Positions 17,397-47,685 of a DNA stretch of 47,966 bases are shown here, piece after piece. The notes beneath the pieces are model-generated. The model worked only from the letters and a program-made list of their open reading frames with translations. It did not search any database and was not told the DNA's origin. Source of the stretch: Ignisphaera sp. GTDB lineage: Archaea; Thermoproteota; Thermoprotei_A; Sulfolobales; Ignisphaeraceae. The stretch spans positions 1-47,966 of the forward strand of contig JAPWTX010000009.1 of the NCBI GenBank assembly GCA_028275825.1. The letters run 5' to 3'. The first letter of the stretch is position 1; every line of letters starts with the position of its first letter. A program made the translations under genes and the position numbers.

Positions 17397-17425
17397 AACA
17401 ATATTATAAAGAATTGAATTAAAGC

Positions 17426-17475
17426 TTATAAGCATGTAAATACCTAATAGTAATTAAGGTAAGACCTGGGTGGTG
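17426..17475 (+). promoter_or_regulatory. Promoter and ribosome binding site of eL34
   Basis: CTTATAAGC at 17425-17433 is a TATA box giving a transcript start near 17457. GGGTGGTG (17468-17475) is a strong ribosome binding site 4-6 bases before the ATA where eL34 must begin. GTAAGACCTG occurs twice (17459-17468 and 17483-17492), directly flanking this binding site, so a local duplication may have altered the start region. Confidence 0.6.
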
Positions 17476-17479
17476 TAAG

Positions 17480-17755
17480 ATAGTAAGACCTGCATTACGC
17501 TCAAGATCCTGCAAAAGAATTCGTAGAAGAACTCCGGGTGGTAGAACAGTTACTCATTATGAAAGGAGGAAGAGAACATTAATGAGATGCGCTAGGTGTG
17601 GAGCTATATTAAATGGTTTACCTACAACAGATCATCTAAGAAGAAATCTTCCCAAAACTTCTAAAAGACCAGAAAGAATGTTTGGAGGTTTTCTTTGTTC
17701 ACGATGCTTAAGGGAGGTCTTAAAGAATGTGGTGAGAGGGTCTGTGCTCAAATAG
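17480..17755 (+). CDS. rpl34e: Ribosomal protein eL34, apparent ATA start codon
   Basis: This is a 91-residue large-subunit zinc protein. The frame reads VRPALRSRSCKRIRRRTPGG, then CARCG and a second pair CSRC (RMFGGFLCSRCLRE), as in archaeal eL34 proteins that start MPRPALRSRS. The codon in the Met position is ATA (17480-17482). The frame stays open upstream but has no ATG, GTG or TTG, and a GGTGG binding site stands at correct spacing before the ATA. The first in-frame ATG is internal, at about residue 35, after conserved sequence. I therefore place the start at ATA. It is followed immediately by cmk. Confidence 0.88.
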   Translation: MVRPALRSRSCKRIRRRTPGGRTVTHYERRKRTLMRCARCGAILNGLPTTDHLRRNLPKTSKRPERMFGGFLCSRCLREVLKNVVRGSVLK

Positions 17756-18317
17756 GCTCGTCATAGCGATTGGGGGTCCTCCAGGCAGTGGCAAAACAAC
17801 TGTAGCAAGGCTCTTAGCTCAAAAGCTTAACATAAAACACATTTCTATAGGGCAATTTTTCAGAAAATTAGCTGAGGAGCGGGGACTAACGCTAACAGAG
17901 CTAACTAAGCTTGCTGAAAAAGACCCGTCAATAGACCTTATGCTGGATTCTTTTGCAAGAAAGGAGGCTGAAAGAGGTAATGTTATCATAGATGGCCATG
18001 CTGCTCCATGGCTTTTAAAAGACTTAGCAATGCTACGGGTAGCGGTAGTAGCTAGCCTTAATACTAGGGTTAAGAGACTTGCTGAAAGAGATGGTAAGCC
18101 ATTTGACCAAGTTATGGAGGAGACGTTGGTTAGAGAGGAAGTTGAGAGGAGAAGGTATCTTAAATGGTATAATATAGATATTAGGGATTTTACAGATTTT
18201 GATATGGTGGTGAATAGTGAGAGATTTTCACCAAATGAGATCGTTGAAATAATACTTAAAGCACTTGAAATCATATGTAAAAAGAACTTAGCAACCTCAA
18301 CTCTAAACTCACCTTAA
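17742..18317 (+). CDS. cmk: Cytidylate kinase, no canonical start codon
   Basis: This archaeal CMP kinase converts CMP/dCMP to the diphosphate. The P-loop GGPPGSGKTTVARLLA starts at about 17769. DGHAAPW and RLAERDGKP (LID region) follow, with a C-terminal helix. The frame is closed upstream by TGA at 17733. Between that stop and the P-loop the only codons are GAG GGT CTG TGC TCA AAT AGG CTC GTC ATA GCG ATT. No ATG, GTG or TTG is available; the first ATG (17940) is far inside the protein. CTG 17742 has GGTGAG 5 bases upstream and is my best guess; ATA 17763 is an alternative. Confidence 0.85.
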   Translation: MCSNRLVIAIGGPPGSGKTTVARLLAQKLNIKHISIGQFFRKLAEERGLTLTELTKLAEKDPSIDLMLDSFARKEAERGNVIIDGHAAPWLLKDLAMLRVAVVASLNTRVKRLAERDGKPFDQVMEETLVREEVERRRYLKWYNIDIRDFTDFDMVVNSERFSPNEIVEIILKALEIICKKNLATSTLNSP

Positions 18318-29520: not shown

Positions 29521-30584
29521 ATGGAGTTTTTGAAGAGATTAGATGAGCTTGCAAATAGAGAACATAGCTATATAGTTAAGTCTGAGGAGACAACAAGTGA
29601 GAAGTATGGTTACTATCCACTTGAGAGACCTATCAATGTATATATAGAGTATGGCTTCATACCTTTGGATAAGCCTCCTGGGCCTACAAGTCATGAAGTT
29701 GTTGCATGGATTAAGAAAATGTTTAATATTGAAAAGGCTGGTCATGGGGGGACCCTAGAACCCCAAACCACCTAAATAGGTGGTTTGGGTGGGGATACCC
29801 CAAGGTAACAGGAGTCTTACCTGTAGCACTGGGAAGAGCAACAAGGATTATAGGGTTGCTGATGCACTCAGGTAAGGAGTATGTGGCACTTATGGAGCTT
29901 CATGGTGATGTTGATTTAAAGAGACTTTATGAGGTTTTTGGAATGTTTACTGGAAAAATTTACCAAAGGCCTCCTCTAAGGTCATCTGTCAGGAGATCTC
30001 TAAGAATTAAAGAGATTTATTCATTAGATTTACTCGAGTTCTCTGGCAGGCATGTTCTCTTTAAGGTTAGGTGTGAGTCTGGAACTTATGTAAGGAAGTT
30101 GTGCCATGACATAGGTCTTGTTTTAGGCGTTGAAGCACATATGAAGGAGTTGAGGAGGGTTGCAGTAGCGCATATAAAAGAAGATTTGCCCGTGGTTACA
30201 CTACACGAGGTTAGCGAGGCTGTGTACTTGTGGAAGAGATATGGTGATGAAACTCTTCTTCGTAAGGTTGTTTTGCCTGCAGAGTACATTGTGGCGCATT
30301 TGCCTAAAGTCATTGTGAAGGATTCTGCTGTTGATGCTATTGCCCATGGCGCTCAATTAGCTGTGCCAGGTGTGGTGATACTGTCAAGCGATGTTAAGAA
30401 GGGTGAAAGGGTTGCTATATTTACGTTGAAGGGAGAGCTTGTGGCTGTTGGTAAAGGTGCTATGGATGCAGAGGAGATAGTCAAAAACGAGAAAGGCATT
30501 GCAATAAAAATTGAGCGAGTTGTTATGAACAGAGGAATATATCCATCTTTATGGAAAAAAGCTGAAAAGGAGGAGAAAAAGTGA
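29521..30584 (+). CDS. cbf5: Pseudouridine synthase Cbf5, interrupted by a 38-base intron
   Basis: Cbf5 is the catalytic subunit of H/ACA RNPs. I read it as join(29521..29758, 29797..30584), 341 residues. Exon 1 ends GHGGTL plus one base; exon 2 gives PKVTGVLPVALGRATRI and the rest of the TruB domain and PUA domain (from about HLPKVIVKDSAVDAIAHGAQL). Read straight through, the frame has Glu in the catalytic position and stops at TAA 29773. Spliced, the codon becomes GAC and restores the conserved GGTLDPKVTG with its catalytic Asp. ATG 29521 matches family N-termini and fits the TATA box at 29479-29487. Confidence 0.93.
29759..29796 (+). other. Archaeal pre-mRNA intron (bulge-helix-bulge) in cbf5
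   Basis: The folding I see has four parts. An outer helix pairs GGGG (29748-29751) with CCCC (29798-29801). A four-pair central helix joins CCCT (29753-29756) and GGGG (29791-29794). The two three-base bulges are AGA (29757-29759) and ATA (29795-29797). A long inner hairpin joins CCCAAACCACC and GGTGGTTTGGG. Cutting after the second base of each bulge (AG^A and AT^A) removes 38 bases and restores the frame. An intron at this place in cbf5 is known from other crenarchaea. Splicing needs the endonuclease and RtcB (5133). Confidence 0.85.
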
Positions 30585-42387: not shown

Positions 42388-43236
42388 TTAAATGGAATGC
42401 AAAAGAAATGCGAAGAGCCCTGCAAAAGCTGCTGACTTTAGCATTCTAGTGGCTTTTAAAGCATCATAGGATCTTAAAGATCTTGCATACATAAGAGAGA
42501 TTATAACTATAGCATCTACAAATAACGCCAATACTGTATAAGCTACACCATATCCAAGGATGAATATGGGCATTATACTTAGCATGATTAGCAATATGAA
42601 TACTGTTACTGATATGTAAAAAGCTACTTGAGTTCCATAAATCGAGGCAATAGTAATTATTCCAAACATCTTATCACCTTCAACATCTTCAATGCCTTTC
42701 AAAAACTCTCTTCCCAAATTAAAGAGAAATGCGTACAAGGATGCTAGAGCTACATGTATCGTAAATTGTGAAAAAGCAGAGCCATAGATTATTGCTAGTG
42801 CCGTTAAAAAAGCTATTGTAATGTTACCAACAAGAAATACTTTCTTTAGGCAATAAGAGTACAGATACACAAGAACAATTGCAATAAAAGCTATTAAACT
42901 ACAGACAATGGAGTGTGATAATGCTAGTAGCATTCCTATAACGAAAAATATTAGAGACATGATTAAAGCTTCTCTAGGCTTTATTAATCCTGAAGGTATA
43001 GGTCTCCATGGCTTATTAATAGCATCAACATTTCTATCATAGTAATCATTTATAATATTGCCTCCACTACCAATAAAAAAAGCTGTAGAAAACAGCTTAA
43101 CCATGTTTAGGATGTTCATTCCATTACCAAGTACATATCCCGCTACTGAGGCTATTCCTAATGCGGTAACATTGCCAATTCTAATAATATTGAACCAAGC
43201 AAAAAGTTTTCTTTTAAAAACAATATAGCTAGAGAT
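42388..43236 (-). CDS. UbiA-type prenyltransferase (DGGGP synthase-like), no canonical start
   Basis: This membrane prenyltransferase probably adds the second geranylgeranyl chain to GGGP in archaeal lipid synthesis. It carries the NDYYDRNVDAINKPWRPIPSG motif and a second Asp-rich region (KGIEDVEGDKMFG), with about eight helices. Homology extends upstream of the first ATG (43119) into FNIIRIGNVTALGIASVAGYVLG, the normal first helix. No ATG, GTG or TTG exists between the stop at 43245 and 43119. The GAGGTGA at 43248-43242 lies 6 bases before ATC 43236; ATT 43224 is another candidate. Confidence 0.82.
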   Translation of the reverse strand: MSSYIVFKRKLFAWFNIIRIGNVTALGIASVAGYVLGNGMNILNMVKLFSTAFFIGSGGNIINDYYDRNVDAINKPWRPIPSGLIKPREALIMSLIFFVIGMLLALSHSIVCSLIAFIAIVLVYLYSYCLKKVFLVGNITIAFLTALAIIYGSAFSQFTIHVALASLYAFLFNLGREFLKGIEDVEGDKMFGIITIASIYGTQVAFYISVTVFILLIMLSIMPIFILGYGVAYTVLALFVDAIVIISLMYARSLRSYDALKATRMLKSAAFAGLFAFLLHSI

Positions 43237-45886: not shown

Positions 45887-47685
45887 GTGCTGAGGCCTAA
45901 GGAGGTTTGTGAGAGACTCGGCATCAGCTATACTACTTTGAGGGACTATGTTAGGAGGGGCTGCATAAAGCCCGTGTTGACTCCTGGTGGTAAGTGGAGG
46001 TTTAGAGAAGAGGATGTGAGAGGTTAATTGGTGTAGTTAAGCAGAAGAGAGTAGTGCTCTACGCTAGAGTATCATCTAATAGTCAGAGAGACGATTTGGA
46101 GAGGCAGGTCAGAGCGTTGGAGGATTGGGCTAGGCAAAACAACATAGTTGATTACGAGGTGGTGACAGATATTGGAAGTGGGTTAAATGAGGATAGGAAG
46201 GGATTCAAGAAGATACTGAAGCTAGCTGTTGAGAGAAAGATATCGAAGATAGTCATAGCATACCCAGATAGATTGACGAGATTTGGCTTCAAAACGATTG
46301 AAGAGCTACTGAGAGCTTTCGGAGTTGAAGTAGTTGTCTTAAACCATGAGGATAAGGATGCTAGGGAGGAGCTTGTAGAAGACCTTATCACAATAATATC
46401 CCACTTTGCGGGAAGACTCTACGGTATGAGGAGCCACAAGTACGAGAAGTGGTTGAAGGTGCGAGAAAGCTCATTGAAGACCCTTAAACAGGTCAGAATG
46501 TACTCAATACCAGTAAGTGATTCAAGAGTTAGTGAGCTGATAACATGGTATCTAAGGACTCTACAGAGAGCAATAGACATAATCTGGGAGAGCATTGATT
46601 GGAGGTATAGGCTCTCGAAAATAGAGAGGAGGAAGAGGAAACAAATAGTAATCATCCCCTATAAGCTTAAAGTCCCCGAGCTACCAAAGAGTAAGTCTTT
46701 CAAGAAGAAGCTTCGTGATGATCTCCTACAAAACTGCCCATACGCTAGACACTGGGTTGACGCTGTTATTAGGACAGCATACTCCATAATGGAGTCATGG
46801 AGGAAGAGGTATATTAAGGGAGGAGCTAGGAAGGTTAAGCCAAGAGTTAAGAAGAGGTTTGCTAGATGTAAGACGACGCTGATGAGTGTGGACTACGAGG
46901 AGAAGAAAATCAGGATTACTGTTAAGCCAGGAGAGTATATAGAGGTCTCTTGGAGTAGTAGGTGGTTCACTAGGATGGTTGAGGGCTGGAGGATTGGAGA
47001 AGTTGTATTGAAGGATGACAGGATACTTATACCATTCAAGTCCACGAGAATTATAGAAGTGAGAGATGTTATTGCGTGGGACTCCAATGAACTATCGCTC
47101 GATGGATTCTCGCCGAGAATAGGCTTCATCAGGGTTGACCTTAAGCCCTTGCAGAGCATGAAGATCACATATGAGAAAAAGAAGAGGATAGCACAGAGCA
47201 GGGGCTTGAAGGACGTCTATGAGAAGTATGTTGCTAGAGAGCGTAATAAGGAGAGGGATTTCGTAAATAAACTAGCAAGTGGGTTAACTAGGCTATTCCC
47301 AAACACTATTCATGTTTTCGAGGATTTAGATAAGGAGGAATTGGTTAGTAGGAGAAAAAACCCCGAAGAGTAGGAGGAAGAGGAATGCTAGAACTCCTTG
47401 GAAGATCATTCAGAAAAAGATCTCTGAGAGAGCTGTTGTAGTAAAGGTTTCCCGAAGAATACCTCTCGGACCTGCCCACGATGCAGGTATGTTGTGAAGA
47501 CCCGAGTGGGCAGGTTATTTAAGTGTCCCAGGTGCGGCTTTGAGCTAGACAGGCAGAAGCTAGCATCAATAAACATATACCTAAAATACCTCAGGATGTG
47601 GGGGTTACCCCACAGCAATGACCTGGAGGAAGCGGTGAAGGGGGGCTGTGGGCTGGGGTCACCCCAAGTGGGTGGAGCCCTGTGA
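45887..47685 (+). mobile_element. Decayed IS607-family element with fused tnpA-tnpB
   Basis: A MerR-type HTH start (RPKEVCERLGISYTTLRDYV) opens at GTG 45887 and ends at TAA 46025. After a one-base shift near 46021 the serine recombinase continues (VLYARVSSNSQRDDLERQV). At about 46489 this runs in frame into TnpB (VRMYSIPVSDSRVSE) with no stop between, giving one 439-codon frame to 47373. Two more shifts follow, an extra A in the A run at 47355-47360 and a missing C at 47451-47453, after which the zinc finger CPRC...CPRC and the last RuvC Asp (LDRQKLASINI) appear. All catalytic residues survive but no intact protein is possible. Confidence 0.9.

Follow-up and report, generated by a model that had tools for sequence, protein, structure and literature searches.

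A probable AUA start codon for ribosomal protein eL34 in Ignisphaera and candidate near-cognate starts elsewhere in the genus

The infC gene of Escherichia coli starts at AUU and is subject to autoregulation by IF3. As a rule, gene finders recognize no starts other than ATG, GTG and TTG, so genes with other start codons are missed or shortened. In Staphylococcus aureus, ribosome profiling identified AUA starts in infC, ccpN and citZ and an AUU start in cvfC1, with extended Shine-Dalgarno (SD) sites, and reporters for ccpN and citZ gave about 10-30% of the AUG output in that host (PMC13009471). For archaea, a review names only AUG, GUG and UUG as starts, the strings AUA and CUG being absent from its text (PMC7531240), and Ribo-seq of Methanosarcina mazei detected CTG initiation in about 5% of unannotated small ORFs (PMC11456600). 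A survey of start-codon switches in 36 prokaryote groups, based on annotated starts, counted 3 genes among 61,358 in which AUG had given way to CUG or AUU (PMC5622118). Our literature search found no report on non-standard starts in Ignisphaera.

Here we describe a window of 47,966 nucleotides (the whole stretch of DNA analyzed) from Ignisphaera sp., an archaeon of hot springs, in which the gene for ribosomal protein eL34 appears to begin at ATA. We consider it very probable that translation of eL34 starts at this AUA (17480-17482) by SD-anchored near-cognate initiation with Met-tRNAi, as one of a recurrent class in Ignisphaera. Like infC of E. coli, this would be a near-cognate start in a translation gene with an SD site; unlike that of eL34, the infC start is conserved and autoregulatory. 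To our knowledge, archaea lack IF3, and we know of no role for eL34 as an initiation regulator. The S. aureus sites likewise combine an AUA start with a well-spaced SD, which is strong there, and some of them are conserved between species; however, they belong to a bacterial, IF3-modulated system of four sites in largely regulatory genes (PMC13009471), whereas the present cases lie in housekeeping genes of an archaeal genus, ribosomal protein genes included, involve several near-cognate codons and are candidates drawn from sequence. With archaeal GUG and UUG starts they share the initiator tRNA, SD-led mRNAs and the use of non-AUG codons (PMC7531240). The M. mazei data also represent archaeal near-cognate initiation at CTG, but concern small unannotated ORFs and CTG only (PMC11456600), whereas the Ignisphaera candidates are conserved full-size genes and extend to AUA and ACG. 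A near-cognate start is of a known kind, and it is the frequency, the number of codons, the ribosomal protein genes and the archaeal genus that are unusual.

The eL34 frame and its putative start

The eL34 frame is open from stop to stop (17432-17755, + strand) and its neighbors are a secY-like gene and cmk. The product matches PF01199 (Ribosomal_L34e) with 74 bits over residues 3-83, nearly its full length. No in-frame ATG, GTG or TTG was found from the upstream TAA (17429-17431) to codon 35, and 34 codons would be lost under standard gene finding. When the 5' end was aligned with those of 51 other eL34 loci, the sister species being set aside, 50 of the 51 showed a standard codon exactly at the ATA position (ATG in 37, GTG in 8 and TTG in 5); the sole exception is a distant locus (L050), where AAG occupies the position and GTG follows as the next codon. 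The coordinates of these and other features are collected in Table 1.

Table 1. Features of the eL34 region and further genes with putative near-cognate starts. Coordinates refer to the window unless a locus is named.
Feature	Coordinates	Strand	Basis or remark
rpl34e (eL34)	17480..17755	+	91 codons from ATA plus stop; PF01199 and alignment to relatives
ATA, putative eL34 start codon	17480..17482	+	aligned codon is ATG/GTG/TTG in relatives and ATA in G010
GGTGG, Shine-Dalgarno-like site	17469..17473	+	6 nt (TGTAAG) before ATA; 6 is the genus peak for GTG/TTG starts
GCTTATAAG, TATA-box-like element	17424..17432	+	contains the in-frame stop TAA 17429-17431
GTAAGACCTG, upstream copy of codon 2-4 sequence	17459..17468	+	incidental; not in G010, not an insertion
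GTAAGACCTG, eL34 codons 2-4	17483..17492	+	second copy of the repeat
cmk (cytidylate kinase)	17742..18317	+	overlaps the eL34 3' end; cytidylate kinase profiles
CTG, putative cmk start codon	17742..17744	+	6 nt after GGTGA; aligned CTG in 8/11 Ignisphaera genomes
GGTGA, cmk Shine-Dalgarno site	17731..17735	+	within eL34 codons
UbiA-family prenyltransferase	42388..43236	-	putative start ATC 43236-43234, alternative ATT 43224-43222
TIM-barrel (AP_endonuc_2) gene	L188:12931-13854 (this genome, contig C25)	+	ATA here, aligned with ATG, GTG or TTG of relatives
eL30	L189:19445-19762 (this genome, contig C52)	+	apparent ACG start

The only other ATA at this codon was found in the sister species, Ignisphaera sp. 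Bin S33 (G010, whose locus L040 is the same as sister locus L051); all other close relatives have ATG, GTG or TTG. Leader and start there read AGG TGA TGC AAA ATA GTA AGA CCT, which places ATA 6 nt after AGGTGA. A tree built from eL34, cmk and the neighboring membrane-protein gene joins G010 and the genome of the window (G000) as sisters with 91% ultrafast bootstrap, and the two ATA codons therefore probably go back to one evolutionary event. The second species also bears on whether a sequencing or assembly error at 17480-17482 masks an ATG or GTG. The assembly of G000 is unfinished, in 86 contigs, which would leave room for such an error. However, G010 is a separate assembly with 78% protein identity; its leader has otherwise diverged, yet the ATA is shared, which a mistake confined to a single assembly could not produce. 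Many similar cases also occur across the genus; we regard an error as scarcely credible.

A start farther upstream or in another frame, by way of N-terminal extension, frameshifting or leader splicing, is somewhat less remote but still very improbable. In the window copy, 16 codons are open before ATA, with near-cognate codons among them; the G010 leader contains an out-of-frame ATG, and the window holds a gene whose reading frame is split, cbf5. Against this, a TGA in frame two codons ahead of ATA closes the G010 leader to any in-frame start farther upstream, and where G010 has its out-of-frame ATG, the window copy reads GTG and then TAA. The in-frame stop inside the TATA-like box of the window copy would leave about 25 nt of leader, and the SD spacing suits ATA. 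The preliminary description had placed ATA at the Met position, with no in-frame ATG, GTG or TTG between it and the promoter, and had proposed aligning rpl34e 5' ends of related genomes as a check. The exact alignment with the starts of relatives bears out the first point, and the absence of an in-frame ATG, GTG or TTG after the TAA within the TATA-like box the second; the alignment itself gave a standard codon in all but one of the loci and added the shared ATA of G010.

As for the TATA-like element, AGCTTATAAG also occurs in the leaders of G004, G005, G006 and G010, and transcription would start about 25 nt downstream of the TATA-like box, which would give a leader of about 25 nt. No Rfam match was found at the eL34 start site, and no bacterial-type promoter or terminator at the eL34 site. 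The GGTGG site, described earlier as normally spaced, indeed lies at the distance from ATA at which GTG and TTG starts peak in the genus. Its duplex has a calculated energy of -9.4 kcal/mol with an anti-SD that was assumed from the observed GGTGA signal. The SD is weaker in the window copy (GGTGG, G-U pairs needed) than in G010.

A local duplication had also been suggested as the origin of the ATA. GTAAGACCTG is indeed present twice around the binding site, but G010 carries only the second copy and has the same ATA, and the window leader is shorter than that of G010, so that no duplication is needed and this origin was rejected. Thus, AUA initiation at eL34 gains support from the second species, the aligned starts of relatives, the SD spacing and recurrence in the genus, while the proposed origin falls; what had been taken for a single oddity appears to belong to a recurring class that includes the next gene, cmk.

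Putative near-cognate starts in cmk and across Ignisphaera

The first 66 codons of cmk contain no ATG, GTG or TTG and would be lost under standard gene finding. Of the 11 Ignisphaera genomes, 8 carry CTG at the aligned start; G001 has ATG there, G003 has TTG, and G009 has TTG one codon beyond the aligned position. Most relatives from outside the genus offer a usable TTG, ATG or GTG close to the start. The SD and start codon of cmk are embedded in the last codons of eL34. In G001 and G003, eL34 ends upstream of the cmk start, and the start codon there is standard. The cmk CTG would be the only widely conserved near-cognate start and is constrained by the overlap with eL34.

The genus was sampled as about 1.7 Mb from 11 Ignisphaera genomes with 1638 predicted genes, about 650 kb of this genome was covered, and a control sample of 0.4 Mb (468 genes) was taken from other families of the order. 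The census covers stretches of genomes, with genes predicted by a simple codon model. The orthologue screen was run on predicted genes, as an all-ORF version was swamped by antisense ORFs. It returned 33 genes without a standard start; these include 6 cbf5 fragments, 7 cmk copies and several short or single-orthologue entries that are noise, and 33 is therefore not a count of near-cognate starts.

The spacing from SD to standard start in Ignisphaera peaks near 6 nt, most sharply for GTG and TTG, with 11 GTG and 27 TTG starts at 5 nt, 35 and 40 at 6 and 8 and 17 at 7. When distinct SD-led genes lacking a usable standard start were considered, a near-cognate codon occupied spacing 6 in 11 of 15; at the remaining in-frame spacings of these genes the count was 21 of 116 (Fisher p=3e-5). 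The ATA codon is common in this AT-rich genome, and the spacing signal is seen in genes without a standard start; over all genes, under a looser 5-nt SD criterion, ATA was not enriched at spacing 6 in a table too noisy for this codon. The control families gave 2 of 3 at spacing 6 versus 0 of 17 at other spacings, so the pattern may reach beyond Ignisphaera. Taken at face value, roughly 1% of Ignisphaera genes would have a near-cognate start (AUA, ACG, CUG, perhaps AUC) exactly 6 nt after GGUGR. This is far above the 3 of 61,358 genes recorded from annotated starts (PMC5622118), and start-codon choice in Ignisphaera looks looser than gene finders assume.

This genome contributes about 5 cases (eL34, cmk, UbiA, TIM-barrel and eL30) in about 580 sampled genes. 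The UbiA-family gene has no ATG, GTG or TTG over 39 codons, and GAGGTGA is followed after 6 nt by ATC; the orthologue in G002 has an ATG that aligns with ATT, four codons after ATC. The gene probably starts at ATC, with ATT as the alternative. For eL30 (further loci L225, L223 and L222), apparently started by ACG in this genome, the congeners G010, G004, G005 and G006 have ATG, and G003, G007 and G008 have ATA, placed 6 nt behind GGTGR and lacking a standard start over roughly 10 codons or more. A GltD-like oxidoreductase shows ATG in G000, CTG in G010 and ACG in G005 at one aligned codon, and a 122-residue protein has ATA in G006 versus ATG in G004 and G005. Further candidates are the purQ, TtuA-like and HepT-like genes of G006 with ATA, in which the domain or coding signal begins upstream of the first standard codon, and homoserine-kinase-like and TFS-like genes of G005 with ACG (gene names assigned by eye). 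The ATA of purQ is also backed by alignment with orthologues; across all these genes, one orthologue is the basis in some cases.

This diversity of codons bears on two other accounts of the eL34 AUA. Editing of the mRNA to AUG would account for AUA in an essential gene, and some chloroplasts do convert ACG starts to AUG in this way. However, the same role at the same spacing falls to ATA, ACG, CTG and possibly ATC, and no single editing activity yields AUG from all of them; editing is barely conceivable here. The second account accepts the same start site and differs on its purpose: AUA initiation would be a regulatory brake, as in bacterial infC or S. aureus ccpN, and not near-neutral drift. 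The affected genes include those of two ribosomal proteins, eL34 and eL30, and the non-canonical starts of S. aureus lower reporter output to about 10-30% of AUG (PMC13009471). Yet the codon of eL34, eL30 and the GltD-like gene varies over the genus among ATG, GTG, TTG, ATA, ACG and CTG, which looks like drift, and the eL34 ATA is confined to G000 and G010 rather than conserved across the clade, other congeners having ATG, GTG or TTG. A regulatory role is thus unlikely, although it deserves more weight than the other alternatives.

Initiation machinery and a possible mechanism

Near-cognate AUA initiation at eL34 would make use of ordinary components. G000 and G010 both have an initiator-type tRNA-Met with anticodon CAT and a GGG/CCC anticodon stem; an altered initiator anticodon was not seen in these two genomes and was rejected as an explanation. 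In Sulfolobus and Pyrococcus, the factor aIF1 selects against codons other than AUG (PMC6237735, PMC8211752). It is present in 11 of 11 Ignisphaera genomes, so no fidelity factor is obviously missing, and loss of aIF1 as the cause of relaxed selection was likewise rejected.

In the mechanism that we propose, the GGUGG in the short leader of the eL34 transcript would pair with the 3' end of 16S rRNA and hold AUA in the P site. Ordinary Met-tRNAi (anticodon CAU) would then initiate on AUA with a mismatch at the third codon position, the SD pairing presumably compensating for the weaker codon. Methionine would be the first residue of eL34.

A broader reading, whose chances we consider evenly balanced, is that in Ignisphaera, and perhaps in other SD-using Thermoproteota, the start is placed mainly by SD pairing at a fixed 6 nt. 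AUA, ACG, CUG and similar codons would then be ordinary starts in about 1% of genes, ribosomal protein genes included, drifting to and from AUG, GUG and UUG. If confirmed, these starts would make it testable how far archaeal start selection depends on SD geometry versus codon-anticodon checking via aIF1 and aIF2.

Two further features were noted. The second part of cbf5 in the window (29732-30581, + strand) has a split reading frame, as would be expected from the intron known for archaeal cbf5. An interrupted N-terminal part is seen in serine-recombinase genes, IS607-like by eye, in the window (46005-47370, + strand) and at L077:12596-13157 (+ strand).
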